The notes under the pieces: model-generated | What the model was told of the DNA's origin: nothing | The model's input: only the letters and a program-made list of their open reading frames with translations | Databases searched by the model: none | Program-made: the position numbers and the translations under genes | Origin: an uncultured Clostridia bacterium | GTDB taxonomy: Bacteria; Bacillota; Clostridia; Oscillospirales; CAG-272 | DNA length: 40,577 bases | NCBI GenBank assembly: GCA_944391805.1 | Contig: CALXUY010000074.1 | Location: 1 to 40,577 of the forward strand | Reading direction: 5' to 3' | Shown: positions 13,501-30,007 of the stretch, one piece after another | How positions within the stretch are numbered: the first letter of the stretch is position 1 | Layout: the number at the start of each line of letters is the position of its first letter

Positions 13501-13529
13501 TTGACAAACCTGAAATGTTGTGATATAAT
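13501..13529 (+). promoter_or_regulatory. Sigma-A promoter of the Ile T-box unit
   Basis: TTGACA (13501-13506), 17-base spacer, TATAAT (13524-13529): full consensus, directly before the T-box. Confidence 0.92.
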
Positions 13530-13540
13530 ATCCCAAAATT

Positions 13541-13820
13541 GATCAAAGGCTGTGACGAAGCCGGTAGAGAAACGCAAGTCCCCAGAGAGTCGGCGCTTGG
13601 TGCGAGCCGATGGCGAGCCTTCTCATACCCATCCCTTCCGAGCCGGAAATCCGAACGCGGGCGGTTGCCGCCGGCAAGTAGGCGTTTCCCGTGATTGCTG
13701 CGTCAATGCATAGGAATTGTTGGATTCCAAGAGTGGCGGCTTTTTGCCGCAATTTGAGTGGTACCGCGGATGTATGATACACCCGTCTCAAAGAGTATTC
13801 TTTTGAGACGGGTGTTTTTT
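13541..13820 (+). promoter_or_regulatory. T-box riboswitch 1, specifier ATC (isoleucine)
   Basis: Stem I starts at about 13548 with a GTGAC kink-turn strand and carries AGAGAG (13584-13589) and the distal GGTGCGA loop. GAAG (13557-13560) pairs with CTTC (13635-13638); GGTAGAGAA (13563-13571) pairs with TTCTC and TACC (13620-13629). The specifier ATC (13631-13633) then lies one base before the lower stem, as in B. subtilis glyQS. GAGTGGTACCGCGG (13756-13769) is the T-box sequence that contacts the tRNA acceptor end. The terminator is the 13-14-bp stem ACACCCGTCTCAAA / TTTGAGACGGGTGT followed by T6 (13779-13820). Expected action: uncharged tRNA-Ile lets transcription through. The base after the specifier is C instead of the usual purine, so Ile is likely but not certain. 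Confidence 0.85.
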
Positions 13821-13854
13821 GTCTGATTTTTGTCTGAGAAAAGGAGAGAAAACA

Positions 13855-16122
13855 ATGGCAACAGTTGATACCGAAAAGCTGTCGGAGGTCGCGCAGCGCA
13901 TCCGGGAGATGCGGGAGATTTCCGGACTGACGCCGGAGGAGATGGCCAGGCGCACAGAGGTCAGTCCCGAGGCGTACTGCCTGTATGAGAGCGGCACACA
14001 GGATTTTCCTTTTACCTTTATTCATAAGTGCGCACTGGCCTTCGGCATCGGCATCACCGATCTGCTCGAGGGGCAGAGCGCGCATCTCTCGTCCTATACC
14101 GTCACCCGTCGGGGGCAGGGACAGGAGACTGCCAAGGAGGACGGTATTGAGATTCAGAATCTTGCTCCGCTCTTCCGCAAAAAGCTGGCCGAGCCGTACT
14201 GGGTGCGTTATTCCTACAGTGAGGAGCTGCAGACACGGCCGATTCACCTGACCCGTCATTCGGGGCAGGAGTTCGATCTTGTCATGCAGGGAAGGCTCAA
14301 GGTGCAGGTCGGCGATCACATCGAGTACCTCGAGGAGGGGGACAGTATTTACTACAACAGCTCCACGCCGCACGGTATGATTGCGGTGGGGGGGGCCGAC
14401 TGCCTGTTTGTGGCGGTTGTGCTCTCGGGTGAGAACGAGGCCGAGCCGGTGATCCGGAGCACGCTGCTGCCGTCACGCACGCAGTCGGAGGGGCTTGTCA
14501 GCGAGCGCTTCATTTCGGTGACCGAAAGTGAAACCGGCTACCCCACATCCATCACCTTCCACAATGAGGATCGCTTCAACTTTGCCTTTGACGTGGTGGA
14601 CGCCATTGCCAAGCGGGAGCCGGATAAGCTGGCCATGCTGCACGTTTCGGGGGACAAAACCGAGCGTCGCTTTACCTTCAACGATATGAAGCGGGCGTCG
14701 GCGCAGTGCGCCAACTATTTCAAGTCGCTCGGAATCAAAAAGGGCGACCGCGTGATGCTGGTGCTCAAGCGGCACTATCAGTTCTGGTTCGCCATCCTGG
14801 GGCTGCACAAGCTGGGCGCCATCGTCATTCCGGCGACAAACCAGCTTCAGGAGCACGATTTCAGCTATCGCTTCCGCGCTGCCGGTGTCAGCGCCATTGT
14901 CTGTACGGCGGACGGGGATGTGGCGCATCAGGTTGAGCTGGCCGAGGCCGACGGCTGTGAGCTGAAGCAAAAGCTGCTGGTGGGCGGTGCACGCGAGGGA
15001 TGGAGAAATTTTGATGAGGAATTCCCGCTCTACAGTGCGCATTTCTACCGCACCGAGGATACCCCGTGCGGGAAGGATCCGATGCTCATGTTCTTCACCT
15101 CCGGCACCACGGGCTATCCCAAAATCGCCGTACATTCTTATCAGTACCCGCTGGCACACTACATCACGGCCAAGTACTGGCATGGTGTGAGCGAAGGGGG
15201 ATTGCATTTTACAATCTCGGATACCGGCTGGGGCAAGGCGCTCTGGGGCAAGCTCTACGGTCAGTGGCTGTGCGAGGGAGCGGTGTTCACCTACGACTTT
15301 GACCGCTTCGATGCGGCCGACATCCTGCCCATGTTCGCAAAATACCACATCACCACCTTCTGCGCGCCGCCGACCATGCTGCGCATGATGATCAAGCAGG
15401 ACATCTCGAAATACGATCTTTCATCGATTGTACACATGACCACGGCGGGAGAGGCGCTCAACCCGGAGGTCTACCGGCAGTTTGAAAAGGCCACCGGACT
15501 GCAGATTATGGAGGGCTTCGGTCAGACCGAAACCACCCTGAGCATCGCAAATCTGATCGGCGACATGCACAAGCTGGGTTCGATGGGACGGCCGGTATCG
15601 CTCTATGATGTGGATCTGCTCGATCCCGACGGCAACCCGGTGCCGGACGGCGAGACCGGAGAAATTGTCATCCGCACCGGCGATCACGTGCCCTGCGGAC
15701 TCTTTCTCGGCTACTATGGCGACGAGGAGAGAACCCGGGAGGTCTGGCATGACGGCTACTACCATACCGGCGCCACCGCCTGGCGGGATGAGGACGGCTT
15801 TTACTGGTTCGTTGGCCGTGTGGACGACGTGATCAAGTCGAGCGGCTACCGCATCGGTCCGTTCGAGATCGAGAGCGTGATCATGGAGCTGCCGTATGTG
15901 CTGGAGTGCGGCGTGTCGGCCGTGCCGGATGAGGTGCGGGGGCAGATCGTCAAGGCCAGCATCGTGCTCACAAAGGGGACCGAGCCGAGCGAAGAGCTGA
16001 AAAAAGAGATTCAGAATTACGTCAAGGCGCACACCGCGCCGTATAAATACCCGCGGGTGGTGGTGTTCCGCGAGGAGCTCCCAAAAACCATCAGCGGCAA
16101 GATTCAGCGCAATCTGTTGTGA
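13855..16122 (+). CDS. HTH-cupin-fused AMP-forming acyl-CoA synthetase, Ile T-box unit
   Basis: 755 residues. Residues 7-72 are an XRE-type HTH (VAQRIREMREISGLTPEEMA and on), residues about 120-195 a cupin (SGQEFDLVMQG, GDSIYYNSSTPHGM), and 225-755 an ANL-family ligase. Ligase motifs are FFTSGTTGYPK (about 415), GFGQTE (about 552), GRVDDVIKSSGYRIGP and the catalytic Lys749 in SGKIQR. It resembles the medium-chain (ACSM-like) group, which forms CoA thioesters from short or branched carboxylates using ATP. Oddity: the nearly invariant TGD motif reads TGA (Ala640, codon 15772-15774). The Ile T-box suggests 2-methylbutyrate as substrate (inference). AAGGAGAG precedes the ATG. Sole gene between two T-boxes; its last 115 residues almost equal those of the next ligase. 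Confidence 0.88.
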   Translation: MATVDTEKLSEVAQRIREMREISGLTPEEMARRTEVSPEAYCLYESGTQDFPFTFIHKCALAFGIGITDLLEGQSAHLSSYTVTRRGQGQETAKEDGIEIQNLAPLFRKKLAEPYWVRYSYSEELQTRPIHLTRHSGQEFDLVMQGRLKVQVGDHIEYLEEGDSIYYNSSTPHGMIAVGGADCLFVAVVLSGENEAEPVIRSTLLPSRTQSEGLVSERFISVTESETGYPTSITFHNEDRFNFAFDVVDAIAKREPDKLAMLHVSGDKTERRFTFNDMKRASAQCANYFKSLGIKKGDRVMLVLKRHYQFWFAILGLHKLGAIVIPATNQLQEHDFSYRFRAAGVSAIVCTADGDVAHQVELAEADGCELKQKLLVGGAREGWRNFDEEFPLYSAHFYRTEDTPCGKDPMLMFFTSGTTGYPKIAVHSYQYPLAHYITAKYWHGVSEGGLHFTISDTGWGKALWGKLYGQWLCEGAVFTYDFDRFDAADILPMFAKYHITTFCAPPTMLRMMIKQDISKYDLSSIVHMTTAGEALNPEVYRQFEKATGLQIMEGFGQTETTLSIANLIGDMHKLGSMGRPVSLYDVDLLDPDGNPVPDGETGEIVIRTGDHVPCGLFLGYYGDEERTREVWHDGYYHTGATAWRDEDGFYWFVGRVDDVIKSSGYRIGPFEIESVIMELPYVLECGVSAVPDEVRGQIVKASIVLTKGTEPSEELKKEIQNYVKAHTAPYKYPRVVVFREELPKTISGKIQRNLL

Positions 16123-16164
16123 TGGAATTCACAAAAAAATCACAAAATAAATGAAAATAGCCTA

Positions 16165-16193
16165 TTGACAAATCCCCGAAGATGTGATACAAT
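16165..16193 (+). promoter_or_regulatory. Sigma-A promoter of the Val T-box operon
   Basis: TTGACA (16165-16170), 17-base spacer, TACAAT (16188-16193). Confidence 0.9.
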
Positions 16194-16199
16194 GGGTAC

Positions 16200-16479
16200 C
16201 AAATCAAAGACGGTGACGGAGAGGGCACAGAACCAGCGGACTTCCAGAGAGATGGCGGACGGTGCGAGCCATTGGGACGGATTTTGTGTTTGTAGCTCCT
16301 GAGTCGGGAGGAAGAAAACGGCAGGCGCCGCGAGTAGACCCTCTCCGTGATTGCTGCGTCAAGGCATAGGAATTGCTGGATTCCAAGAGTGGCGGCTCTG
16401 CCGCAATTTGAGTGGTACCGCGGGTGTATTTTTCACACTCGTCTCAAAGTCATTATCTTTGAGGCGAGTGTGTTTTTTT
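16200..16479 (+). promoter_or_regulatory. T-box riboswitch 2, specifier GTA (valine)
   Basis: GAC-GGTGAC-GGAG (16209-16221) pairs with CTCC-TGA-GTC (16296-16305). CACAGAA (16226-16232) pairs with TTTTGTG (16282-16288). The 3' specifier loop is TTTGTAG, so the codon one base above the lower stem is GTA (16292-16294), valine, followed by the expected purine. AGAGAG and the distal GGTGCGAGCC are present, as is the T-box core GAGTGGTACCGCGG (16409-16423). The terminator stem CACACTCGTCTCAAAG / CTTTGAGGCGAGTGTG (16434-16472) is followed by T7. The 3' half is almost identical to T-box 1, so the pair arose by tandem duplication followed by specifier change. Confidence 0.9.
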
Positions 16480-16504
16480 CGCCTCACAGAGAGGAGAAGA
16501 AAGC

Positions 16505-18793
16505 ATGGAACAGATCAGCGGACTCAATTTCAAGATTCAGGAGATGGCCGGGCGCATCCGGGAGCTGCGCGAGGTGGAGGGGCTGAGCGCCGAGGAGATG
16601 GCGCAGAGGGTCGAGGTGCCGCTCCGCGAGTACGAGCAGTGCGAATCCGGAAAGAGCGACCTCAACTTCGCCTTTCTCTATCGCTGCGCGATTGCGCTGA
16701 ATGTCAATGTCACCGACATCATCGAGGGCTACAGCCCCAAGCTCCAATCCTACACGGTGACCCGCAACGGGGGAGGACAGGAGATCGGCCGGGCGCACGG
16801 CATGACCTATTACAACCTTGCCTATGCGTTTCAGAACCGCATTGCCGAGCCGCTCTACGTGCGCAGCAGCTATGACGAGAGCGCACAGCGGCGGGACATT
16901 GAGCTGACGACTCACAAGGGGCAGGAGCTTGACATCGTGGTGGAGGGCAACCTGATGGTGCAGGTCGGGGAGCACCGGGAGGTGCTCGGCCCCGGGGACA
17001 CCATTTATTACGACAGCTCCACGCCGCACGGTATGATCGCCGTGAACGGCAGAGACTGCGTGTTTTATGCGATTGTGCTCAACGCCGCCGGCGAGCCGAT
17101 CCCCGAGCTGGCAGCAGCCAAGCTCATCCGGGAGGCCGCGCCCGCACGCCGCGACATGCAGGACCGCATCTGGCGCAAATACATTGATGTGGTGGAGAAC
17201 GAGCAGGGAACCCCAACCTCCATTTCCTTCAAAAACACCGAGCATTTCAATTTTGCGTTTGACCTGGTGGATGCGTTGGCAGACCGGGAGCCGGATAAGC
17301 TGGCCATGCTCCACGTTGCAAAAGACAAAACCGAGCGCCGCTTCACCTTCCGGGATCTGAAAAAGGCCTCGTCCCGCTGCGCCAACTATTTCAAGTCGCT
17401 CGGAATCAAAAAGGGCGATCGCGTGATGCTGGTGCTCAAGCGGCACTATCAGTTCTGGTTTGCCATGCTGGGGCTGCACAAGCTGGGGGCCATTGCCATT
17501 CCGGCAACAAACCAGCTTCAGGAGCACGATTTCGCATACCGTTTTGCATCTGCGGGCATTTCGGCTATCCTCTGTACGGCGGACGGCGACACTGCGCACC
17601 AGGCCGATCTGGCCGCGGCCGGATGTCCGGAGCTGAAGCACAAGCTGCTGGTGGGGGGACGCCGCGATGGCTGGAGGAGCTTTGACGAGGAGTATCTGCT
17701 CTACAGCACGCACTACGACCGGCCGGCCGACGCCCCCGGCGGGGACGATACCATGCTCATGTTCTTTACCTCCGGTACCTCCGGGTATCCGAAGATTGCG
17801 GTGCATAACTACAAATACGCGCTCGGGCACTTTCACACCGCCAAATACTGGCACAATGTGGAGCCGGACGGCCTGCATCTGACCATCTCGGATACCGGCT
17901 GGGCCAAGGCCATGTGGGGCAAATTTTACGGCCAGTGGCTGTGTGAGGCCGCCACGTTTGTCTATGATTTTGACCGTTTCGACGCGGCCGACATCCTGCC
18001 CATGTTCGCCAAATACCACATCACCACCTTCTGCGCCCCGCCGACCATGCTGCGCATGATGGTGAAGCAGGATATCTCCAAATACGATTTTTCCTCGGTG
18101 CATCATATGACCACGGCGGGAGAGGCGCTCAACCCGGAGGGCTACCGGCAGTTTGAAAAGGCCACCGGGCTGCAGATCATCGAGGGCTTCGGTCAATCCG
18201 AGAGCACAATGATCATCGGCAACCTCACGGGCGCGCCCCATAAGCTCGGCTCGATGGGCCGTCCGGCGCCGATCTATGATGTGGAGCTGCTGGACGCCGA
18301 GGGCAACCCGGTGCCGGACGGCGAGACCGGAGAGATCTGCGTGAATGTCAAAAACGGCGCTCCCTGCGGTCTGTTTACCGGCTATTACCGGGATCCGGAG
18401 CGCACTGCCGAGGTCTGGCACGACGGCTACTATCACACCGGCGACGAGGCGTGGCGGGATGAGGACGGCTTTTACTGGTACGTCGGCCGTGTGGACGACG
18501 TGATCAAATCGAGCGGCTATCGCATCGGCCCGTTCGAGATCGAGAGCGTGATCATGGAGCTGCCGTATGTGCTGGAGTGCGGCGTGTCGGCCGTGCCGGA
18601 TGAGGTGCGGGGGCAGATCGTCAAGGCCAGCATTGTTCTGACCAAGGGAACCGAGCCGAGCGAGGAGCTGAAAAAGGAAATTCAGAACTACGTCAAGGCA
18701 CACACCGCGCCGTATAAATACCCGCGGGTGGTGGTGTTCCGCGAGGAGCTGCCCAAAACCACCAGCGGCAAAATTCAGAGGAACAGGCTGTAA
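16505..18793 (+). CDS. HTH-cupin-fused AMP-forming acyl-CoA synthetase, Val T-box operon
   Basis: 762 residues, same architecture as the upstream paralogue: XRE HTH (about residues 12-75), cupin (about 125-200; KGQELDIVVEGNL, YYDSSTPHGM), then the ligase with FFTSGTSGYPK, GFGQSE, HTGDEAWRDEDG (Asp647 present), VDDVIKSSGYRIGP and Lys756 in SGKIQR. All adenylation motifs are intact. The Val T-box suggests isobutyrate as substrate, giving isobutyryl-CoA for the oxidoreductase in the same operon (inference). The HTH and cupin could make it a DNA-binding or ligand-sensing protein as well as an enzyme, in the manner of PutA-like bifunctional proteins. GAGGAGA precedes the ATG. About 130 bases without gene separate it from ilvE. 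Confidence 0.9.
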   Translation: MEQISGLNFKIQEMAGRIRELREVEGLSAEEMAQRVEVPLREYEQCESGKSDLNFAFLYRCAIALNVNVTDIIEGYSPKLQSYTVTRNGGGQEIGRAHGMTYYNLAYAFQNRIAEPLYVRSSYDESAQRRDIELTTHKGQELDIVVEGNLMVQVGEHREVLGPGDTIYYDSSTPHGMIAVNGRDCVFYAIVLNAAGEPIPELAAAKLIREAAPARRDMQDRIWRKYIDVVENEQGTPTSISFKNTEHFNFAFDLVDALADREPDKLAMLHVAKDKTERRFTFRDLKKASSRCANYFKSLGIKKGDRVMLVLKRHYQFWFAMLGLHKLGAIAIPATNQLQEHDFAYRFASAGISAILCTADGDTAHQADLAAAGCPELKHKLLVGGRRDGWRSFDEEYLLYSTHYDRPADAPGGDDTMLMFFTSGTSGYPKIAVHNYKYALGHFHTAKYWHNVEPDGLHLTISDTGWAKAMWGKFYGQWLCEAATFVYDFDRFDAADILPMFAKYHITTFCAPPTMLRMMVKQDISKYDFSSVHHMTTAGEALNPEGYRQFEKATGLQIIEGFGQSESTMIIGNLTGAPHKLGSMGRPAPIYDVELLDAEGNPVPDGETGEICVNVKNGAPCGLFTGYYRDPERTAEVWHDGYYHTGDEAWRDEDGFYWYVGRVDDVIKSSGYRIGPFEIESVIMELPYVLECGVSAVPDEVRGQIVKASIVLTKGTEPSEELKKEIQNYVKAHTAPYKYPRVVVFREELPKTTSGKIQRNRL

Positions 18794-18924
18794 GCACGCA
18801 TATCCGTGCCTCTTCGCCAGAGGACGAGAGGATAACCGATACGGTGCTGCTGACGCTGATTGTCCTATGTCATTTCGCTGTGAGGCCACGGCCGCGCAGT
18901 ATCTCATAAAAAGGAGAAGGAATC

Positions 18925-20004
18925 ATGAATATTTCCATCACCAGAACCACCCAACCAAAGGCAAAGCCTGCCGATGAGAGCAAGCTCGGCTTCGGTCGGA
19001 TCTTCACCGACCACATGTTCCTGATGAACTATTCGGTCGAGGAGGGCTGGCACAACGCCCGCGTAGTGCCCTACGGCCCGATTGCGCTGGATCCCTCTGC
19101 CATGGTATTTCACTATGCGCAGGAGCTGTTTGAGGGGATGAAGGCTTACCGCCGTCCGGACGGCAGCATTCAGCTCTTCCGCCCCGACAAGAACATCGAG
19201 CGCATGAACAACACCTGCGACCGCCTGTGCGTCCCGAGAATCGACCCTGCCGATGCGCTCCAGGCCATCGAAACCGTGGTGGCCGTGGACAGCGACTGGG
19301 TTCCGCACACCAAGGGAACCTCGCTCTACATCCGCCCGTTTATCATCGCCACCGATCCGCAGCTGGGCGTGCATCCTTCGCACACCTACATCTTTGCGGT
19401 TATTCTCTCGCCGGTCGGCTCGTACTACGCCGCAGGGCTTGATCCGGTCAAAATCATGGTGGAGCGGGAATATGTCCGCTGCGTCAAGGGGGGAACCGGA
19501 CTGGCCAAGGCCGGAGGAAACTATGCGGCCTCGCTCATCGGTCAGAAAAAGGCCGAGGATATGGGATTTGCGCAGGTGCTCTGGCTGGACGGCGTTCACC
19601 GCAGGTATATCGACGAGGTGGGCGCGATGAATGTGTTCTTTGTGATTGACGGCACCGTCATCACGCCGGACCTGACCGACGGCAACATCCTGCCCGGCGT
19701 CACCCGCGCCTCCTGCGTCGAGCTGCTGAAAAAATGGGGGATGCCGGTGGAGGAGCGCAAGCTCTCGATTGATGAAATTCTCGAGGCGCAGGCGTCCGGC
19801 CGGCTGGACGAGGCCTTCGGCACCGGTACCGCTGCGGTTATCTCACCGATCGGTGAGCTGTATGACCGGGGACAGACCTACATCATCAACAACGGTGAGA
19901 TCGGCAAAATCGCGCAGAAGCTCTATGATACGCTCTACGGCATTCAGAACGGGAGCGTAGAGGACTTCATGGGCTGGACGCGCCCGCTGAGCGTGAAGGC
20001 ATGA
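18925..20004 (+). CDS. ilvE: Branched-chain amino acid aminotransferase
   Basis: 359 residues, the length of the mammalian-type (BCAT-like) fold-type IV PLP enzymes. Diagnostic parts are FHYAQELFEGMKAYR, the PLP-lysine segment GGTGLAKAGGNYA (Lys195), VLWLDG with YIDEVGAMNVFFV, ILPGVTRAS and EAFGTGTAAVISPIG. It interconverts the three branched 2-oxoacids and Val, Leu, Ile with glutamate/2-oxoglutarate. In this operon it would carry out the last step of all three routes. AAGGAGAAGG precedes the ATG; the TGA overlaps the start of the next gene (ATGA). Confidence 0.95.
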   Translation: MNISITRTTQPKAKPADESKLGFGRIFTDHMFLMNYSVEEGWHNARVVPYGPIALDPSAMVFHYAQELFEGMKAYRRPDGSIQLFRPDKNIERMNNTCDRLCVPRIDPADALQAIETVVAVDSDWVPHTKGTSLYIRPFIIATDPQLGVHPSHTYIFAVILSPVGSYYAAGLDPVKIMVEREYVRCVKGGTGLAKAGGNYAASLIGQKKAEDMGFAQVLWLDGVHRRYIDEVGAMNVFFVIDGTVITPDLTDGNILPGVTRASCVELLKKWGMPVEERKLSIDEILEAQASGRLDEAFGTGTAAVISPIGELYDRGQTYIINNGEIGKIAQKLYDTLYGIQNGSVEDFMGWTRPLSVKA

Positions 20005-20666
20005 ATTCCGCCAAGCGCATCACGCTGTTCTGCGGACACTACGGGAGTGGGAAAACCAACATTGCCATCAACTACGCGCTGCATCTGCGGCAGGGCGGGG
20101 AAGCCGTAACGGTGGCCGATCTCGACATTGTGAATCCCTATTTCCGCACAAAGGACAGCCGTGCCGAGCTGGAGCGGGCGGGCATCCGGCTGATCTGCTC
20201 GGATTACGCCAATACCAACCTCGACATTCCGGCGCTCCCCCCCGAGCTGTACGCCATTACCGATGACCGCTCCCACCGCGTGGTGCTGGATATCGGCGGC
20301 GACGACCGGGGCGCGCTGGTGCTCGGGCGCATCACCCCCGCCATTCTCGCCGAGGATTCCTATGAGATGCTGCTGGTCATCAACCGCTACCGCCCGCTCA
20401 CGCCGGACGCCCCTTCCACCGTTGAGGTTATGCGGGAGATTGAGCAGGCCGGCGGCATCCGCTTCACGGGTCTGGTCAACAACTCCAATCTCGGTGAGGA
20501 AACCGAGCCGGACACGGTGCTCGGCTCGGTTCCCTATGCGGAGGAGCTTTCCCGCCTGACAGGGCTGCCGGTGGTGATGACCACCGTCAAAAAGAACCTG
20601 TTTGAGGCTCTGCAGGGGCAGGTGCCGGGTCTGTTCCCCCTGACGCTGCAGGCGAAGATTGTGTGA
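20001..20666 (+). CDS. P-loop ATPase associated with 2-oxoacid oxidoreductase
   Basis: 221 residues. A Walker A motif GHYGSGKTN lies at residues 12-20, VADLDIVNPYFRT resembles the switch region of SIMIBI/MinD-like ATPases, and VVLDIGGDD is the likely Walker B. Cytosolic; no membrane helices. The gene is coupled to ilvE and followed by the ferredoxin-type subunit gene. It could help assemble or reactivate the iron-sulfur enzyme, as MinD-like ATPases do in other metallo-enzyme systems, but that role is inferred from position only. Confidence 0.8.
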   Translation: MNSAKRITLFCGHYGSGKTNIAINYALHLRQGGEAVTVADLDIVNPYFRTKDSRAELERAGIRLICSDYANTNLDIPALPPELYAITDDRSHRVVLDIGGDDRGALVLGRITPAILAEDSYEMLLVINRYRPLTPDAPSTVEVMREIEQAGGIRFTGLVNNSNLGEETEPDTVLGSVPYAEELSRLTGLPVVMTTVKKNLFEALQGQVPGLFPLTLQAKIV

Positions 20667-20716
20667 ACGGGGCGGCGTGCCCGGCGCACCTCTATTTTAA
20701 CAAAGGAGTACCAATC

Positions 20717-20923
20717 ATGGCAAAACTGAGTTTCCGGACCGACCTGTGCAAGGGCTGCGGTCTGTGTGTGGATGCCTGCCCCAAAAAGGTGCTGCGGCTG
20801 GCAACCGACAAAATCAATAAAAAGGGACATCATCCGGTGGAGGCAGCGGACGAGGCCGCCTGTATCGGCTGCGCGTTCTGCGCCACCATGTGCCCCGACT
20901 GCATCATTCAGGTAGAAAGGTAA
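20717..20923 (+). CDS. vorD: 2-oxoacid:ferredoxin oxidoreductase, 4Fe-4S delta subunit
   Basis: 68 residues with two ferredoxin-type cluster motifs, CKGCGLCVDACP and CIGCAFCATMCP, so two [4Fe-4S] clusters. It passes electrons between the TPP subunit and ferredoxin. The delta-alpha-beta-gamma order matches 2-oxoisovalerate or 2-oxoglutarate oxidoreductases of anaerobes. AAAGGAG precedes the ATG; 8 bases separate the stop from the alpha subunit. The symbol reflects the BCAA context and is not proof of substrate. Confidence 0.92.
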   Translation: MAKLSFRTDLCKGCGLCVDACPKKVLRLATDKINKKGHHPVEAADEAACIGCAFCATMCPDCIIQVER

Positions 20924-20931
20924 GGAGAACA

Positions 20932-22002
20932 ATGTCTGAAAAGGTTTTGATGAAGGGGAATGAGGCCATCGCGGAGGCGGCCATCATTGCGGGGTGCCGG
21001 CACTATTTCGGCTACCCGATCACCCCCCAGACTGAAATTGCCGCGTACATGGCCAAGCGGATGCCCAAAATCGGCGGCACCTTCCTGCAGGCCGAGAGTG
21101 AGATTGCGGCAATCAATATGGTGTACGGCGTCTCTGCCGCCGGTAAACGGGTGATGACGTCCTCGTCCAGCCCCGGAGTGGCGCTCAAGAGCGAGGGGCT
21201 TTCCTATCTGGCCGGAGCCGACCTGCCGGCGCTGGTGGTCAACGTGCAGCGCGGCGGCCCGGGCCTGGGCGGCATTCAGCCCAGCCAATCGGATTATTTT
21301 CAGGCCACCCGCGGGGGCGGTCACGGGGATTTCCACATGATTGTTCTGGCTCCCGCTTCGGTACAGGAGATGGCCGAGTTCACGGTCAAGGGCTTTGAGC
21401 TGGCCGACCAGTACCGCATGACCGCCATGATTCTGGCCGACGGAACCATGGGGCAGATGATGGAGCCGGTTAGCCTGGACCTTGCGGTCTCTCCGATGCC
21501 CGAAAAGCCGTGGGCAACCACAGGCACCCGCATGAAGCGGCCGCACAATATCGTCAACTCTCTGTATCTGGTGCCCGAGGTGCTCGAGCGCTCCAACTTT
21601 GAGCGGTACGAGCGCTACCGTACCATTGAGGAGCGGGAGGCGATGTATGAGGAATACCGGATGGAGGATGCGGAGATCTGTATCGCCGCCTTCGGCATTG
21701 CCGCGCGCGTTTCCAAAAACGCCATCAACGAAGCGCGGGCAGAGGGGATCCGGGTGGGGATGATCCGTCCCAAAACGCTCTGGCCCTTCCCGTCGGCGCC
21801 CTTCCGGGCGGCGGCCGACCGTGTCAAGGCGATGATCTCGGTCGAGCTTTCGATGGGGCAGATGATTGAGGATGTGCGCCTTGCCACCGAGTGCCGGGTT
21901 CCCGTATCCCTGTGCAACCGGGTGGGAGGCATGATTCCCGAGCCGGAGCAGATTCTGGCGGCCATTCGCGAGGCCGCCAAGACAGGAGGTAACAAGCAAT
22001 GA
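20932..22002 (+). CDS. vorA: 2-oxoacid:ferredoxin oxidoreductase, alpha subunit
   Basis: 356 residues. The N-terminal pyrimidine-binding domain (GNEAIAEAAIIAGCRHYFGYPITPQTEI; AESEIAAINMVYGVSAAGKR; TSSSSPGVALKSEG; NVQRGGPGLG) and the C-terminal transketolase-type domain (IRPKTLWPFP; VELSMGQMIEDVR) match KorA/VorA. The complex interconverts acyl-CoA + CO2 + reduced ferredoxin with 2-oxoacid + CoA; the context favours branched acyl groups. In the KorA/VorA family substrate cannot be read reliably from sequence alone. AAGGAG before the ATG; overlaps vorB by four bases. Confidence 0.92.
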   Translation: MSEKVLMKGNEAIAEAAIIAGCRHYFGYPITPQTEIAAYMAKRMPKIGGTFLQAESEIAAINMVYGVSAAGKRVMTSSSSPGVALKSEGLSYLAGADLPALVVNVQRGGPGLGGIQPSQSDYFQATRGGGHGDFHMIVLAPASVQEMAEFTVKGFELADQYRMTAMILADGTMGQMMEPVSLDLAVSPMPEKPWATTGTRMKRPHNIVNSLYLVPEVLERSNFERYERYRTIEEREAMYEEYRMEDAEICIAAFGIAARVSKNAINEARAEGIRVGMIRPKTLWPFPSAPFRAAADRVKAMISVELSMGQMIEDVRLATECRVPVSLCNRVGGMIPEPEQILAAIREAAKTGGNKQ

Positions 22003-22757
22003 TCGTTTTTCAGAAACCAAAGGCTTTGGCAGACGTGCCGATGCACTATTGCCCGGGCTGCACGCACGGTATCATTCACCGTCTGGTGGCCGAGGTGATC
22101 GATGAGCTGGGCATTGAAGGCAGGACCATCGGCATCGCTCCGGTGGGCTGCTCGGTGATGGCCTATGATTACTTCAACTGCGATATGATCGAGGCCGCGC
22201 ACGGCCGTGCGCCCGCGGTTGCCACCGGCGTCAAGCGCGCCGATCCCGAAAACCACATTGTGTTTACCTATCAGGGCGACGGCGACCTGGCCTCCATCGG
22301 TATGGCCGAAACCGTACACGCCGCTGCGCGCAACGAGAACATCACGGTCATTTTCATCAACAACGCCATCTACGGCATGACCGGCGGGCAGATGGCGCCG
22401 ACCTCTCTGCCCGGGCAGGTCACGCAGACCTCCCCCTACGGCCGGGACGTCAAGCTCTGCGGCTATCCGGTGAAGGTATGCGAAATGCTCTCCGAGCTGG
22501 AGGGGCCGGAGTATCTCGAGCGTGTGACCGTGAACAACGTCAAAAACGTGAAAAATGCCAAAAAGGCGATCAAAAAGGCCTTCCAGAATCAGGTGGAGGG
22601 CAAGGGCTTTTCTCTGGTGGAGGTGCTTTCCTCCTGCCCGACCAACTGGGGCATGACCCCGCAGAAGGCGCTGCAGTGGATTGACGAGAAGATGATTCCG
22701 TATTACCCGCTGGGCGTGTATAAGGATCGCTCCGGGAGCGCGGAGGTGAGCAAATGA
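21999..22757 (+). CDS. vorB: 2-oxoacid:ferredoxin oxidoreductase, beta (TPP) subunit
   Basis: 252 residues. CPGCTHGIIH near the start and the TPP/Mg motif GDGDLASIGMAE ending at FINNAIYGMTGGQ are diagnostic for the beta subunit of the KorB/VorB family. The cysteines CPGC and Cys in PVGCS may contribute a further [4Fe-4S] cluster, as in related beta subunits. It binds thiamine diphosphate, where C-C bond formation or cleavage takes place. Start overlaps vorA (ATGA) and stop overlaps vorC. Confidence 0.93.
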   Translation: MIVFQKPKALADVPMHYCPGCTHGIIHRLVAEVIDELGIEGRTIGIAPVGCSVMAYDYFNCDMIEAAHGRAPAVATGVKRADPENHIVFTYQGDGDLASIGMAETVHAAARNENITVIFINNAIYGMTGGQMAPTSLPGQVTQTSPYGRDVKLCGYPVKVCEMLSELEGPEYLERVTVNNVKNVKNAKKAIKKAFQNQVEGKGFSLVEVLSSCPTNWGMTPQKALQWIDEKMIPYYPLGVYKDRSGSAEVSK

Positions 22758-23287
22758 GTACCATGCAGTTTTTGTTTTCCGGCTTTGGCGGACAGGGCAT
22801 TCTGTTTGCCGGTAAATTTATGGTATACAAGGGGATGCTGGAGGGAAAGCAGGTCAGTTGGCTCCCCTCCTACGGTCCCGAGATGCGCGGAGGTACGGCG
22901 AGCTGCAGTGTGATTGTCGGTGATGAGCCGGTCGGTTCTCCGATCGTGACCCGTCCGGACGTGCTGGTTGCTATGAATCTCCCGTCGTTCGACCGATACG
23001 AGCCGGCGGTGGTTCCGGGCGGCACCGTCTTTTTGGATTCCACTCTGATCAGCCGCAAGCCCGCACGCAGCGACGTCACGGTGTATGAAATTCCCGCCAC
23101 CAAGCTCGCCAGCGACAACGGCATTCCTACACTGGCCAATATGATCATTGTCGGTAAGATTCTGCATGTTCTCGGTCAGTTTGACGAGGGGGATGTGGAG
23201 GCCGCGCTCAAAAAGGTGATTTCCGCCAAGCATGCGGATATGATGGAGGCCAACCTGCGGGCGCTTCGGTTGGGCACACAGGCCTGA
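22754..23287 (+). CDS. vorC: 2-oxoacid:ferredoxin oxidoreductase, gamma subunit
   Basis: 177 residues. FSGFGGQGILFAGK, SYGPEMRGGTASCSVIV and ANMIIVGKILHVLG are the family signatures of the catalytic gamma subunit that binds CoA. Last gene of the Val unit and completes a four-subunit enzyme. After the stop only an A/T hairpin (AAAAATC/GATTTTT, 23304-23333) could act as a weak terminator before the Leu promoter. Confidence 0.93.
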   Translation: MSTMQFLFSGFGGQGILFAGKFMVYKGMLEGKQVSWLPSYGPEMRGGTASCSVIVGDEPVGSPIVTRPDVLVAMNLPSFDRYEPAVVPGGTVFLDSTLISRKPARSDVTVYEIPATKLASDNGIPTLANMIIVGKILHVLGQFDEGDVEAALKKVISAKHADMMEANLRALRLGTQA

Positions 23288-23367
23288 TTTGAGCAGAAAA
23301 GCCAAAAATCAGAGCGAAAAATGTGAGATTTTTATTCGGATGCGCATTTGAATTTTCAAAATCCGCA

Positions 23368-23396
23368 TTGACAAAACCCGAAAATTGTGCTATAAT
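23368..23396 (+). promoter_or_regulatory. Sigma-A promoter of the Leu T-box operon
   Basis: TTGACA (23368-23373), 17-base spacer, TATAAT (23391-23396): full consensus. Confidence 0.92.
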
Positions 23397-23410
23397 AGCT
23401 CATATTTCAA

Positions 23411-23676
23411 AATGCGATGAAGGAATTATTTTTTCCCATGTATCACGTGCAGAGAGTTGGCGGGCGGTGCGAGCCAAACGGGAGAGGGAAAAAAGTCTCG
23501 TTCCGGAGCAGATCCGCCGAACCCCAAGGGGCAGTAAGCGGGTACGGATGGCCCCGTTATCATGGCTGAGAGCTTGTTTGAGTTCTGCTGAGTGACCGCC
23601 CGTGGGGCGGTAATTGGGGTGGTACCGCGATGATTCGTCCCTGAATCCGTTTTTTCAACGGCTTCAGGGGCTTTTC
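23411..23676 (+). promoter_or_regulatory. T-box riboswitch 3, specifier CTC (leucine)
   Basis: TGC-GATGAA-GGAA (23413-23425) pairs with TTCC-GGA-GCA (23501-23510). TTTTTTCCC (23429-23437) pairs with GGGAAAAAA (23486-23494). The 3' specifier loop is GTCTCG, giving CTC (23497-23499), leucine, one base above the lower stem and followed by the expected purine. AGAGAG (23450-23455) and distal GGTGCGAGCC are present. The T-box core is GGGTGGTACCGCGA (23617-23630). The terminator hairpin CCCTGAA...TTCAGGG (23639-23669) with inner TCCGTT/AACGG ends in a short CTTTTC. Its sequence is unlike T-boxes 1 and 2, so it was acquired independently. 23680-23855 is a further leader of about 175 bases with GC-rich hairpins and no gene. 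Confidence 0.9.
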
Positions 23677-23855
23677 TGTATTCAGCCGGCAGAAGAAACG
23701 GGTTCGTGGGGCGGAGAGCGCGGCAGACTGCGTGCCCTTCCCGGGCGGGCTTTGCCCGGCGGTACGCAGCGGCGTTTTTGCCGACGCGCGACCTGCGCCG
23801 ACAGCCGAACCGATCAGGCGTTTACAGAACGCCGCAAGGCGAAAAGGAGGTTTGT

Positions 23856-25247
23856 ATGAAGAAAATCATCATTTCGGACACCACGCTCTGCCGGGAAAAC
23901 GGCAGCTTCAGCTTCAAGGAGAAAATTGAAATTGCCCGCCATCTGGGCCGGCTCGATGTGGATGTCATTGAGCTTCCCGCGATCGCCAGTGCCAAGACCG
24001 ACGTCCTGCTGGTGCGCACCATGGCTTCCTTTGTCAAAGCTCCGGTGCTCTCTGTGGCGGCAGGAGCGGATCTGCAGAGCATCGAGCTGGCGGCGGCGGC
24101 GCTGAACGGCGCGGCGCACCCGCGCATCCGCGTGGCGCTGTCGCTCTCGCCGGTGGGCATGGAGTATACGTATCATAAAAAGCCGGAAAAAATGCTCGGG
24201 TGGATTGCCGAGGCTGTGGAGGCTGCATGCAAAACCGGCATGGAGGTGGAGTTCTGCGCGCTGGACGCCACCCGTGCCGAGGAGGCCTTCCTGAAGGAAG
24301 CGCTCGCGGCGGCCATTGCGGCCGGGGCCACGGTGTTCTCGCTTTGCGACGACGCGGGGCAGATGATGCCCGATGATTTTGCCGCCTTTGCCGAACAGAC
24401 GGCCGAGTCGGCCGGCATTACGGTCGGGGTGCATTGCAGCAACCGCAGCGGATTTGCCTGTGCCGCCGCCGCGCTGGCGGTTCGCCGGGAGCATGTCAGC
24501 GGGGTCAAAACCTCGGTGGGAGGAGACGGCGTTCCGCTGGAAACCTTTGCCGATATGATGCAGAACTGCGGCAGCCACTATCGGCTTTCGGATGGAATCC
24601 GGCACACCGAGCTGCATCGCGTCGTGCGCCAGATCGGCTGGATTGCCGCGCATTCCGGGCAGGAAAAGGCGGCGGTGCCGGCAGCGTCCGGCGACGGGAT
24701 GCCTGCGGTGTGTCTGGATGCGAAGGACAGCCGCGAGGATGTGATTGCTGCGGTCCGCGCGCTTGGCTACGATCTCTCGGAGGAGGACTGCGCGCGGGTG
24801 TATGAGGAATTTCTGCGTGTGGCCTCCAAAAAGCAGGTGGACGTGCGGGATCTCGAGGCCATTGTCGCCAGCACCGCCCTGCAGGTTCCCCCGACCTATC
24901 AGCTCAAAACCTATGTGGTCAACAGCGGCAATGTGCTCTCGGCCAGCGCGCAGATCACGCTGACCAAGGGAGAGGCCGAGCTTTCCGGCGTCTGCATCGG
25001 CGAGGGACCGGTGGAGGCTGCCGTGCGTGCGCTCGAGCAGATCATCGGGCGGCACTATGAGCTGGACGATTTTCAGATTCACTCGGTCACAGAGGGCACC
25101 GGAGCGGTGGGATCCGCGCTGGTACGGCTGCGCTCGGGGGGCAAGCTCTATTCCGGCAACGGAATTTCCACCGACATCATCGGCGCGGGCATCCGGGCGT
25201 ATATCAACGCGGTGAATAAGATTGTTTACGAGGAGGATGTGCAATGA
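23856..25247 (+). CDS. Isopropylmalate-synthase-like protein with degenerate active site and intact LeuA regulatory domain
   Basis: 463 residues: an HMGL-like TIM barrel (1-290), a linker, and a C-terminal LeuA allosteric domain (about 345-460; LSASAQITLTKGE, GEGPVEAAVRALEQI, GTGAVGSALV, GNGISTDIIGAGIRAYINAVNKI). Catalytic motifs of true synthases are altered: the TLRDGEQ region reads DTTLCRENGSF, the metal motif HxHND reads HCSNRSG (His193 kept, second His is Ser195, Asp is Arg197), and the NGxGERAGN region reads KTSVGGDGVPLE. It probably cannot perform the normal condensation with metal. The regulatory domain binds leucine in LeuA, so this may be a leucine sensor or a re-purposed lyase. The start follows AAAAGGAGG. 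Leu T-box controlled; TGA overlaps the next ATG. Confidence 0.85.
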   Translation: MKKIIISDTTLCRENGSFSFKEKIEIARHLGRLDVDVIELPAIASAKTDVLLVRTMASFVKAPVLSVAAGADLQSIELAAAALNGAAHPRIRVALSLSPVGMEYTYHKKPEKMLGWIAEAVEAACKTGMEVEFCALDATRAEEAFLKEALAAAIAAGATVFSLCDDAGQMMPDDFAAFAEQTAESAGITVGVHCSNRSGFACAAAALAVRREHVSGVKTSVGGDGVPLETFADMMQNCGSHYRLSDGIRHTELHRVVRQIGWIAAHSGQEKAAVPAASGDGMPAVCLDAKDSREDVIAAVRALGYDLSEEDCARVYEEFLRVASKKQVDVRDLEAIVASTALQVPPTYQLKTYVVNSGNVLSASAQITLTKGEAELSGVCIGEGPVEAAVRALEQIIGRHYELDDFQIHSVTEGTGAVGSALVRLRSGGKLYSGNGISTDIIGAGIRAYINAVNKIVYEEDVQ

Positions 25248-27778
25248 AGCTGTCGTTTTCCACCAAGGGGTGGCACCAGAGCAGTTTTGATGAGTTCTGC
25301 GAGATGGCGAACGATCTCGGCTTTGAGGGGATCGAGCTGCACAACATACACAATCGGCTCTTTACCGATCCGGACGGCGCGTTCCATGATTACGCCGCCG
25401 CGGCCACCCGCCGCCGGCTGTTTGAGCGCGGACTGACGATCCCGTGTATCGATGCGGTCTGCGAGCTTTCGGATACGCCGGAGGCGGTGGAGGAGATTAC
25501 AAAGTGCTTGGAAATCGCCAAAAATCTGCACATTCCGCATGTGCGCCTGCGCGCCAGCGCGCCGGATACCGAGGCGGTTGAGGCCGCGGATATGGCCATC
25601 GAGCAGGTGGCGGCGCTGATCTCGCGTGTGCTCCCCGCGGCCGAGGAGAGCGGCGTGACGCTGCTGCTGGAGACGGCCGGGCTGTTTGCCAAAACCGCCG
25701 TGCTGCGGGATATGCTCGAGCGCTTTGCCTCGGATTCTCTCGCCGCTCTCTGGGAGCTCTCCGCCACCAGCCTGTGCGCCGGGGAGACGCCGGAGGAGGT
25801 CATCCGCAATCTCGGGGCGTATGTGCGGCATGTCCACTTCAGCGATGCGAAAAAGGCCGCGGACGGCGGCGTGGAATACTGCCTGGCAGGGGAGGGCGAG
25901 CTGCCGCTGGACGACGTGATGCGCGCGCTGCGCTCGGTCAATTATGACGGCTTCCTCTCGCTGGTCTGGAATCCCGCATGGTGCGAGGAGCTGGACGATA
26001 TGGAAATCATCTTCGCGCAGTTTGCCGGCTTTATGAAGCAGTACAGCGACACCTCCCGCAAGGAGAAAACCCTGTATTACAACAACGCCCGCACCGGAAA
26101 GTTTGTCTGGAAAAAGGATCTGCTGATCGACGCGACCTTCTCGCAGGTGCTCGACCGTATGGTGGAGGAGTTCCCGGATCAGTACGCCTTCAAATACACC
26201 ACGCTGGATTATACCCGCACCTACAGTGAGTTCCGGGACGATGTGGACACCTTCTGCCGGACGCTCATCGCGCTGGGGGTCCGGGCGGGGCATCATGTCG
26301 CGGTCTGGGCGTCCAACGTGCCGCAGTGGTATATCGCCTTCTGGGCGGCCACCAAAATCGGCGCCGTGCTGGTGACTGTCAACACCGCTTACAAGATTCA
26401 CGAGGCCGAGTATCTGCTCAAGCAGTCGGATACGCATACCCTCATTTTCACCAAAGGCTCCAAGGATTCGGATTATTCCGCGATCATTGCCGAGCTTTGC
26501 CCCGAGCTGGAGCACACCCGGCCGGGCGAGCACCTGCACAGCAAGCGGCTGCCGTTTTTGCGCAACGTCATCACCGTAGGGTTTCACCAGAAGGGGTGCC
26601 TGGAGTGGAACGAGGCGCTGGAGTATGCCGGGCAGGTGCCGCAGGAAACTGTGGACCGCATGGCGGCCGCAGTCAGCCCGGATGACGTGGCCAACATGCA
26701 GTACACCTCCGGCACCACAGGATTCCCCAAGGGCGTTATGCTGACGCATTACAACATCGTCAACAACGGCAAGTGCATCGGCGACCGGATGGATCTTTCC
26801 ACCGCCGACCGCCTGATGATTCAGGTGCCCATGTTCCATTGCTTCGGCATGGTGCTGGCCATGACCGCGGGCATGACGCACGGGACCACGCTGCTGCCGC
26901 TTCCGTATTTTTCGGCCAAGCCGGCGCTGGCCTGCATTCACAACGAGCATATCACGGCCTTTCACGGCGTGCCCACCATGTTCATCGCTCTGCTGGAGCA
27001 TCCGGATTTTGCCAAAACCGATTTTTCGTATATGCGCACCGGCATTATGGCCGGCAGCCCCTGCCCGATCTCGGTGATGCGGGATGTGGTGGACAAAATG
27101 CACATGAGCGAGATCACCATTGTGTACGGGCAGACCGAGGCGTCGCCGGGCTGCACTATGAGCTCGACCGACGACCCGATCGAGGTGCGCGTGGGTACCG
27201 TGGGGCGTCCGCTGCCCGAGATCGAATGCAAAATCGTCAATCCCGAGACCGGCGAGGAGTGCCCGGACGAGGTGACAGGAGAGTTCCTGGCGCGGGGCCA
27301 TAATATCATGAAGGGGTATTATAAGATGCCGGGCGCCACTGCCGCCGCCATCGACGCCGACGGCTGGCTGCACACCGGCGACCTGGCCTGCCGCACGCCC
27401 GAGGGCAACTACCGCATCACCGGGCGCCTGAAGGATATGATCATCCGGGGCGGAGAAAACATCTACCCCAAGGAGATTGAGGACTTCATTTACACCCACC
27501 CGAAGGTCAGCGACGTGCAGGTCATCGGTGTGCCGGATGAGCAGTATGGCGAGGAAATCATGGCCTGCATCATCCTCAAGGAGGGCGAACAGATGACCGA
27601 GAAGGAGATGAAGGATTATATCAACGCCCACATGGCCCGCCACAAGGTGCCGCGGTATATCGAATTTGTGGACTCCTTCCCGATGAACGTGGCAGGCAAG
27701 ATTCTCAAATACAAAATGCGGGAAATGGCAATTGAAAAGCTGGGTCTGCAGAAGGCGAACGGAGTGGTGACGGCATAA
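25244..27778 (+). CDS. TIM-barrel / AMP-forming acyl-CoA synthetase fusion, Leu T-box operon
   Basis: 844 residues. Residues 1 to about 265 are a sugar-phosphate-isomerase/epimerase-like TIM barrel (LSFSTKGWHQSSFDEF; GFEGIELHNIHN; VRHVHFSDAKK). Residues 280-844 are a complete acyl-CoA synthetase: YTSGTTGFPKGVMLTH (about 487), YGQTEASPG, HTGDLACRTPEGNY (about 709), GRLKDMIIRGGENIYPKEIE and the catalytic Lys819 in AGKILK. It is of the FadD/acyl-CoA ligase type and not close to the two HTH-cupin ligases. Several barrel residues that usually bind metal look replaced (for example LLLETAG kept, but ALWELSATS instead of a Asp-His pair), so the barrel may be a binding module. The Leu T-box suggests isovalerate as substrate (inference). 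Confidence 0.88.
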   Translation: MKLSFSTKGWHQSSFDEFCEMANDLGFEGIELHNIHNRLFTDPDGAFHDYAAAATRRRLFERGLTIPCIDAVCELSDTPEAVEEITKCLEIAKNLHIPHVRLRASAPDTEAVEAADMAIEQVAALISRVLPAAEESGVTLLLETAGLFAKTAVLRDMLERFASDSLAALWELSATSLCAGETPEEVIRNLGAYVRHVHFSDAKKAADGGVEYCLAGEGELPLDDVMRALRSVNYDGFLSLVWNPAWCEELDDMEIIFAQFAGFMKQYSDTSRKEKTLYYNNARTGKFVWKKDLLIDATFSQVLDRMVEEFPDQYAFKYTTLDYTRTYSEFRDDVDTFCRTLIALGVRAGHHVAVWASNVPQWYIAFWAATKIGAVLVTVNTAYKIHEAEYLLKQSDTHTLIFTKGSKDSDYSAIIAELCPELEHTRPGEHLHSKRLPFLRNVITVGFHQKGCLEWNEALEYAGQVPQETVDRMAAAVSPDDVANMQYTSGTTGFPKGVMLTHYNIVNNGKCIGDRMDLSTADRLMIQVPMFHCFGMVLAMTAGMTHGTTLLPLPYFSAKPALACIHNEHITAFHGVPTMFIALLEHPDFAKTDFSYMRTGIMAGSPCPISVMRDVVDKMHMSEITIVYGQTEASPGCTMSSTDDPIEVRVGTVGRPLPEIECKIVNPETGEECPDEVTGEFLARGHNIMKGYYKMPGATAAAIDADGWLHTGDLACRTPEGNYRITGRLKDMIIRGGENIYPKEIEDFIYTHPKVSDVQVIGVPDEQYGEEIMACIILKEGEQMTEKEMKDYINAHMARHKVPRYIEFVDSFPMNVAGKILKYKMREMAIEKLGLQKANGVVTA

Positions 27779-28584
27779 TGTTTGGAAATCAGATAGAAGT
27801 GATCGACGCGCACTGCCATATCTATCCCGAAAAAATCGCGGCGCGTGCCGCCCTGAGCGTGGGAGACTTTTACGGGGAGAGCGCTGCCTGCCCGGGCACG
27901 GTCGAGGGGCTTTTGCGCGAGGGGAGCGCGGCCGAAATCGACCGGTTTGTGGTGCAGTCGGTTGCAACAACCCCCCACCAGGTTGAAAGCATCAACCGCT
28001 TCATTGCCGCCGAGGTGGCAGAGCAGGGCGGGAGGCTCATCGGGTTTGGCACCCTGCATCCCGACAGCGCCGATCAGGCAGGCGACATCGCCCGCCTGCG
28101 CGAGCTGGGGCTGCGCGGGGTCAAGCTGCACCCGGACATTCAGGGCTTTAAAATTGACGATTACCGCTGCCTGCGCATCTATGAGCTGTGCGAGCAGGAG
28201 GGGCTGCCGATTCTGATGCACACCGGCGACAGCCGGTACGACAATTCCAACCCCAACCGCCTGCTGCCCATCCTCAAAATTTATACCGGCCTGACCGTGA
28301 TCGGCGCGCATTTCGGTGGCTGGTCGATCTGGGAGGAGGCAAGCGAACAGCTTTGCGGCATTCCCAACCTGTATGTGGACTGCTCCTCCAGCCTCTCTTA
28401 TATCCCGGCTGAAACCGCGCGCAAAATCATCCGGCGCTACGGCGCTGACCGGGTGCTCTTCGGCACCGATTATCCGCTGCACTCCCCGGTGCATGAGCTG
28501 GAGCTGTTCGGGGCGCTTGGGCTGACCGATGAGGAAAACCGGGCGATTCTGAACGGCAACGCCCGGCGGCTGCTGGGGCTTTGA
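27778..28584 (+). CDS. Amidohydrolase family TIM-barrel protein
   Basis: 268 residues of the amidohydrolase 2 family (ACMSD-like). Metal-site candidates are IDAHCHIYP (HxH), LHPDIQGF, MHTGDS (His), GAHFGGWS (His) and GTDYPLHSP (Asp). Members hydrolyse or decarboxylate ring or carboxyl compounds; no substrate can be assigned. Its ATG overlaps the stop of the ligase fusion by one base (TAATG), so it belongs to the Leu unit. It might hydrolyse or recycle a side product of the pathway, but that is a guess. Confidence 0.82.
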   Translation: MFGNQIEVIDAHCHIYPEKIAARAALSVGDFYGESAACPGTVEGLLREGSAAEIDRFVVQSVATTPHQVESINRFIAAEVAEQGGRLIGFGTLHPDSADQAGDIARLRELGLRGVKLHPDIQGFKIDDYRCLRIYELCEQEGLPILMHTGDSRYDNSNPNRLLPILKIYTGLTVIGAHFGGWSIWEEASEQLCGIPNLYVDCSSSLSYIPAETARKIIRRYGADRVLFGTDYPLHSPVHELELFGALGLTDEENRAILNGNARRLLGL

Positions 28585-29992: not shown

Positions 29993-30007
29993 TCGGGGGA
30001 GAGAACC

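Follow-up and report, generated by a model that had tools for sequence, protein, structure and literature searches.

Introduction

The T-box leaders (RF00230) of the branched-chain amino acid (BCAA) regulons of Firmicutes usually stand in front of ilv-leu biosynthesis, synthetase and transporter genes. Here, we analyze a stretch of 40,577 nucleotides (contig CALXUY010000074.1 of assembly GCA_944391805.1, in full length called the window) from an uncultured Clostridia bacterium of the CAG-272 lineage, in which three leaders with the same architecture, tRNA specifier logic and transcription attenuation, reading Ile, Val and Leu, are each followed instead by a carboxylic acid:CoA ligase.

That rumen bacteria draw on isobutyrate, isovalerate and 2-methylbutyrate in forming amino acids is long established, and rumen anaerobes are said, after Allison, Robinson and Peel, to carboxylate branched-chain acids reductively to Val, Leu and Ile. 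Routes of this kind are discussed in PMC7356843. The chemistry and habitat predicted for the window are the same; what the window adds is a set of candidate genes, each acid being under its own tRNA control matched to the amino acid.

Two described ligases serve for comparison. The first, MacsMa of Methanosarcina acetivorans (3ETC), is a 2-methylbutyryl-CoA synthetase; PMC10455477 gives 2-methylbutyrate as its preferred acid and reports that Trp259 is critical for substrate binding. MbcS of Staphylococcus aureus belongs to the same broad ligase family as the Ile and Val ligases of the window and, according to PMC10026030, activates both 2-methylbutyrate and isobutyrate to feed lipid synthesis while taking isovalerate poorly; unlike these two ligases, which score far below the MbcS family cut-off, it serves lipids with one enzyme for both acids.

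Judging from sequence comparison, we consider it quite probable that the three ligases activate the acids that match their codons (2-methylbutyrate, isobutyrate and isovalerate), and that a ketoisovalerate:ferredoxin oxidoreductase (VOR) carboxylates and a branched-chain aminotransferase (BCAT) aminates the products to give Ile, Val and Leu. The salvage interpretation put forward in a preliminary description of this DNA is supported by the analysis. Its author knew of no account of a three-way, amino-acid-matched T-box arrangement, and we found no such paper in the open-licence literature, a scope in which subscription T-box work may be missed; the words acyl-CoA, CoA ligase and ferredoxin have no match in the main text of two T-box surveys (PMC2494555 and PMC3766115). 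The individual parts are known, and it is their arrangement for which we found no published description.

Leaders and Specifiers

The covariance model RF00230 matches all three leaders: the Leu leader passes the gathering score, and the Ile and Val leaders score lower, yet far beyond chance. The promoters, leaders and specifiers named in the preliminary description were all recovered in place, the specifiers exactly so by a structural rule that starts from the lower stem (Table 1). The T-box hallmarks are present, namely a UGG(N) antiterminator, a specifier in the stem I loop and a terminator, which in the Leu leader was read by eye from a stem-loop at about 23633-23675 and is absent from the terminator scan list. 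Scanning the region gave 11 promoter-like sites with 4.9 expected, the weight lying on the near-perfect matches, and 20 terminator-like sites with 13.1 expected, of which attenuator-like ones lie 3' of the Ile and Val antiterminators.

The register of the codons was examined in relatives' leaders read as Ile (85), Val (90) and Leu (36), in which the flanking bases vary on both sides and the third codon base shows synonymous variation only (Val A/C/G, Leu C/T); since the codon read served to select these rows, the fixed codon is partly built in, and the informative parts are the flanks and the synonymous third bases. The lower-stem rule slips by one base when that stem has five pairs, which is the case in the Tyr leaders described below and, by eye, in one leader before asparagine synthase. 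Among the 11 T-boxes found in the host genome, a control leader reads GTG by the same rule before valS, and leaders read by eye give ATC before ileS, TTC before pheS and TGG before two trpB-like genes (all genes named by reading the protein). The host genome also holds tRNA-Val(UAC) and tRNA-Leu(GAG), which match the specifiers.

Specifier and Ligase Type Among Relatives

Specifier and ligase clade vary together in relatives, which speaks in favour of the salvage interpretation. Together with the recovery of the specifiers by covariance model and structural rule, this gives a favourable outcome for both computational checks proposed in the preliminary description. From family genomes and 80 named contigs, leaving out matches whose alignment started past residue 20, we obtained 228 ligase matches and, after removal of those with stops, shorter than 600 residues or identical, 216 distinct Ile/Val-type ligases. 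The 107 Ile-type ligases follow 90 ATC and one GTC, with 16 lacking a readable leader; the 109 Val-type ligases follow 80 GTA, 12 GTC, one GTG, two CTG, one ATC and 13 without a readable leader. The specifier thus agrees with the type in 90 of 91 and 93 of 96 readable leaders, respectively, leaving four exceptions among 187. On a tree of 214 ligases (clustered at 98.5%), the 185 that carry a label require four specifier changes, against at least 52 in 100 shuffles. For the Leu type, 56 loci were examined, and all 43 readable leaders read Leu (42 CTC and one CTT). Beyond the family, in 35 of 142 matching genomes from 15 families of the class, 49 ligases (three partial gene copies left out) gave 26 ATC, 19 GTA and four unreadable leaders, with agreement in 45 of 45.

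These counts include corrections of the specifier script, whose discordant readings among the 216 (five Ile-type and three Val-type) were traced to misparses. Eight calls were corrected by a second candidate, an earlier parse or eye (L050, L073, L104, L112, L117, L280, L286 and L300), and four leaders outside the family were likewise corrected before counting (L400, L394, L395 and L405).

The four exceptions are L084 (Ile codon, Val-type ligase), L067 and L068 (Leu codon, Val-type ligase) and L100 (Val codon, Ile lineage). A substrate switch was not adopted for L067 and L068, where a Leu-type unit lies further down the same strand and its own leader was not found by the script, or for L084, which is closest to L083, where a leaderless Val-type ligase follows an Ile-type one. 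Operon rearrangement would explain these three mismatches.

A Pocket Residue That Follows the Codon

When the alignment columns were ranked by specifier, with L084 and L100 set aside, residue 467 (Val ligase numbering) came first of 746. With every row included, Gly stands here in 90 of 91 ligases with an Ile specifier and Ala in 94 of 94 with a Val specifier. The position corresponds to residue 255 of MacsMa, four before Trp259, where MacsMa has Gly (3etc chain numbering minus 23 gives MacsMa numbering, as checked on motif III). By sequence, 3etc is the closest solved structure for both types (E below 1e-180), and six MacsMa pocket positions (Trp237, Trp254, Lys256, Trp259, Cys298 and Gly351) are invariant in 216 of 216 ligases; we take Trp237, Trp254, Lys256 and Cys298 to be pocket residues of MacsMa. 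The Ile type has the equivalents of both Trp259 and Gly255. The Ile and Val ligases differ from MacsMa in carrying helix-turn-helix (HTH) and cupin domains in front and in occurring as two forms, one with Gly (Ile) and one with Ala (Val). If the substrates are matched, the enzyme that takes the smaller acid would be expected to have the larger side chain. The two ligases are named here as predicted 2-methylbutyryl-CoA synthetase (Ile type) and predicted isobutyryl-CoA synthetase (Val type). An AlphaFold model of the Val ligase was left unused for placing residue 467 (mean pLDDT 66, below 50 at 463-470).

One of the four exceptions bears directly on this residue. L100 lies on the Ile side of the tree and has a GTC specifier, Ala467, Met470 and, in all, five of eight ligase-domain residues of the Val type, whereas other Ile-lineage ligases have at most two; L101, its nearest neighbor, has Gly467 and, by eye, ATC. 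It looks as if codon and pocket had changed together.

The HTH and cupin front ends (13855-14500 and 16505-17150) are typical of regulators, and the fused ligases may bind DNA in addition. The Ile and Val ligase genes are about 60% identical over their first 450 bases, 65-90% identical from there to 15805 and 91-97% identical over 15805-16104, including an unbroken run of 104 matching bases up to 15962; gene conversion is a possible cause of this pattern.

Table 1. Features of the three units in the window, and two related features elsewhere in the host genome (last two lines).
Feature	Positions	Strand	Evidence and remarks
Sigma-70 promoter, Ile unit	13501..13529	+	TTGACA-17-TATAAT, 12/12 consensus matches
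T-box leader, Ile unit	13543..13793	+	RF00230 85.6 bits, E 9.4e-18; below gathering score 93
Specifier codon ATC (AUC, Ile)	13631..13633	+	Lower-stem rule; flanks variable in relatives
Intrinsic terminator, Ile unit, competing with antiterminator	13779..13815	+	15-pair stem and T run
Ile-type ligase	13855..16122	+	HTH, cupin and MACS/MbcS-type AMP-forming acyl-CoA synthetase (Pfam); 3etc E 1e-184
Sigma-70 promoter, Val unit	16165..16193	+	11/12 consensus matches
T-box leader, Val unit	16204..16449	+	RF00230 75.6 bits, E 3.6e-15; below gathering score 93
Specifier codon GTA (GUA, Val)	16292..16294	+	Lower-stem rule; GTA/GTC/GTG in relatives
Intrinsic terminator, Val unit	16434..16472	+	16-pair stem and T run
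Val-type ligase	16505..18793	+	HTH, cupin and MACS/MbcS-type synthetase (Pfam); carries Ala467
BCAT, ilvE type II	18925..20004	+	TIGR01123 and NF009897 above cut-off
CbiA/ParA-like P-loop NTPase	20001..20666	+	PF01656 just under cut-off
VOR delta subunit, 2x[4Fe-4S] ferredoxin	20717..20923	+	Open reading frame and Fer4 families
VOR alpha subunit (vorB)	20932..22002	+	NF005507 532.8 bits, cut-off 399
VOR beta (TPP) subunit	21999..22757	+	PF02775 over cut-off; best NCBIfam matches below theirs
VOR gamma subunit	22754..23287	+	PF01558 3e-37, over cut-off; NCBIfam matches below theirs
Sigma-70 promoter, Leu unit	23368..23396	+	12/12 consensus matches
T-box leader, Leu unit	23408..23645	+	RF00230 111.7 bits, above gathering score 93
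Specifier codon CTC (CUC, Leu)	23497..23499	+	Covariance match and lower-stem rule; CTC/CTT in relatives
LeuA-like protein	23856..25247	+	HMGL-like and complete LeuA_dimer (leucine-binding) domain; without RDGEQ and HxH
Leu-type ligase	25244..27778	+	AP_endonuc_2-type TIM barrel (25244-26000) fused to AMP-forming synthetase
Amidohydro_2 family hydrolase	27778..28584	+	PF04909 1.8e-35
Tyr unit	G000:C3 2273-7891 (L119)		UAC T-box, AMP ligase, IorA, IorB, PaaK-like ligase
Second T-box reading UAC by eye	G000:C81 14670-14926 (L004, L121)	minus	Before sodium:solute symporter, TIGR00813 over cut-off

The Val Unit and the Proposed Direction of the Route

The preliminary description assigned one AMP-forming ligase to each unit, which family searches bear out for all three, and gave the Val unit a BCAT and a full VOR; we identified alpha, beta and gamma and, in addition, the delta subunit, so that all four are present. 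The Ile unit is a single gene. Not named in that description are the HTH and cupin front ends of the Ile and Val ligases, the P-loop gene, the LeuA-like gene, the TIM-barrel front end of the Leu ligase and the amidohydrolase. Of 73 Val-type ligases tested among relatives, 53 are followed by VOR alpha, beta and gamma, and kin of the P-loop NTPase occur together with VOR behind the same number (53/73).

We propose that uncharged tRNA-Ile, -Val or -Leu would pair with its own leader and stabilize the antiterminator, and that antitermination would switch on just that ligase by which the matching acid is committed. The ligase, converting ATP to AMP, would set the direction from acid to CoA ester, the ferredoxin-linked VOR would run in the carboxylating direction, and the shared carboxylation and amination steps would follow the Val signal. 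A cell short of Ile, Val or Leu would in this manner rebuild the missing one from scavenged fermentation acids.

The same genes could be read in reverse, with BCAT and VOR degrading BCAAs to acyl-CoA and the ligase running backwards to release the acid, given that VOR and BCAT also serve Stickland-type fermentation. We regard degradation as very unlikely: T-boxes induce upon amino acid shortage, AMP-forming ligases spend ATP and are driven towards the CoA ester by the loss of pyrophosphate, no phosphotransacylase or kinase is among the genes identified in the units, and ilvC and ilvD have no match in the host assembly (3.0 Mb, 94% complete). The host has the gene set for reductive carboxylation (ligase, VOR and BCAT), and the markers of the classical route were not found.

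The Classical Route in the Family

Two sampled congeners (95-97% complete) likewise gave no match to ilvC or ilvD, which were both detected in 14 of 14 control genomes. No leuB over the family cut-off was found in the host assembly or in these congeners; the lone weak match to the leuB model in the host (139 bits, cut-off 353) is, by reading, probably an isocitrate dehydrogenase.

The survey of 118 family genomes classed fetched loci only, which covers 67 of 81 matching genomes. Val-type ligase and ilvC occur together in two, the ligase alone in 31, ilvC alone in 51 and neither in 34, so ilvC is lacking in 31 of 33 genomes with the ligase (Fisher p 3e-8, optimistic through shared ancestry). 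Against ilvD, the corresponding counts are five, 28, 53 and 32, and over-cut-off leuB is lacking in 32 of the 33. Leu-type ligase and leuB occur together in eight, the ligase alone in 55, leuB alone in 42 and neither in 13; leuB over its cut-off is lacking in 55 of 63 genomes with the ligase (p 1e-12, again optimistic through shared ancestry), a set that omits eight of 71 genomes whose match has no TIM-barrel part.

This distribution bears on a second alternative, namely that the main role of the ligases is to prime the synthesis of branched fatty acids for the membrane, the role of MbcS in S. aureus, and that the T-boxes sense a shortage of BCAAs as the usual primer source. The MbcS equivalog NF047394 is the best NCBIfam match of both the Ile and the Val ligase, at 422 and 434 bits with a cut-off of 850, and MbcS activates the same two acids for lipids, as cited above. 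We nevertheless hold lipid priming to be unlikely, since BCAT and a full VOR follow the Val ligase on the same strand, VOR subunits recur behind most of the Val-type ligases tested, Val- and Leu-type ligases tend to occur where ilvC and leuB are missing, and one T-box per acid would be a better fit for amino acids than for a mixture of lipids.

Among at least 592 relatives, the best 80, all from named records, are without exception labelled as metagenome-assembled genomes or uncultured; an animal host or a gut site appears in 39 of their 80 titles. When the whole region was searched against plasmids, a single record came up, its best place covering about 42 bases.

The Leu Unit

The preliminary description presented three parallel ligase units. 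One AMP-forming ligase does stand in each, but the Leu unit is no plain counterpart of the other two: the Leu ligase is of another family, fused to a TIM barrel and preceded by a LeuA-like protein. MbcS handles isovalerate poorly, and a separate ligase family for this acid would therefore make sense; we name the enzyme a predicted isovaleryl-CoA synthetase. Only the ligase part of the TIM-barrel fusion matches in eight family genomes.

RDGEQ and HxH are the metal and catalytic motifs of 2-isopropylmalate synthase (LeuA). In the LeuA-like protein, DTTLCRENG and HCSN stand in their place, and the motifs are also lost in the relatives with these regions covered, a set of 42 frames in which the window and two duplicates are counted. 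The HMGL-like and LeuA_dimer domains would suit a remnant of the classical leucine route, in which this protein makes isopropylmalate from ketoisovalerate and the ligase serves elsewhere. Such a remnant is highly improbable given the lost motifs, the lack of an over-cut-off leuB in the host genome and 12 relatives in which the Leu T-box is immediately followed by the ligase and no intervening LeuA-like gene was found. Our guess is that the LeuA-like protein could be a candidate leucine-binding sensor acting on the neighboring ligase.

Directly downstream of the Leu unit, 28709-30925 encode a Cys/Met-metabolism PLP enzyme and a homoserine O-succinyltransferase.

A Probable Tyrosine Counterpart

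The host genome contains a further unit, behind a UAC T-box, that is likely the aromatic counterpart of the branched-chain design (Table 1). Its IorA and IorB, the indolepyruvate:ferredoxin oxidoreductase, are over their NCBIfam cut-offs, and the PaaK-like ligase is below its own. Of 42 Tyr-type loci examined, 14 have a readable leader, all UAC (read by eye as GAA-UAC); Rfam found no T-box in 19 of the 23 loci so searched, and nine further loci, covered by the specifier script alone, had no readable leader. The symporter behind the second UAC T-box is possibly an importer of Tyr or aryl acids. The unit shares its gene set with the aryl-acid route to aromatic amino acids via indolepyruvate oxidoreductase and differs in its Tyr T-box control and in the presence of a TyrA-type gene in the host; because of this TyrA family gene, we rejected a replacement of tyrosine biosynthesis by the Tyr route.

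Weighing the Evidence

Several observations weigh against the salvage interpretation or narrow it:

(i) The Ile and Val leaders fall under the curated Rfam cut-off, leaders could not be read at 13 of the 56 loci of the Leu type and for 29 of the 216 Ile/Val-type ligases, and tRNA-Ile(GAU) was not found among the 37 tRNA matches of the host genome.

(ii) Sorted by lineage, 106 of 107 ligases on the Ile side have Gly at residue 467, and 109 of 109 on the Val side have Ala. The residue largely follows lineage, so most of the pattern is explained by descent; any further coupling between codon and pocket would be carried by L100, a single event. L084 has an Ile codon yet Ala467, and L067 and L068 combine a Leu codon with Ala467. 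The presumed effect of Gly and Ala on substrate size is inferred from sequence.

(iii) The absence of leuB is a weaker marker than that of ilvC and ilvD because leuB reached its cut-off in only nine of the 14 control genomes.

(iv) Replacement of the classical route is not universal in the family, because a Val-type ligase co-occurs with ilvC in G105 and G117, ilvD is kept in five of 33 genomes with this ligase, Val-type ligase and ilvC are both missing from 34 of 118, and ilvC persists in 17 of the 34 genomes whose ligases are of the Ile type only.

We give an even chance to a broader proposal: T-box specifier and a single pocket residue (Gly for 2-methylbutyrate, Ala for isobutyrate) would co-evolve in gut Clostridia, such that a shortage of the corresponding amino acid is required before an acid is used; the classical route would be displaced in many lineages, the design would extend to Tyr, and the Leu unit would be doubled by a dead isopropylmalate synthase acting as a leucine sensor.

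Conclusions

In this analysis, we have compared a three-way T-box locus with the ligases and leaders of its relatives. The salvage interpretation would name candidate genes, and one switch per branched acid, for the supply of amino acids. The codon in the leader would tell which amino acid is served and may thereby aid the annotation of AMP-forming ligases, whose superfamily resists substrate prediction. For animal guts, how cross-feeding on branched acids is linked to the supply of amino acids would become testable gene by gene.

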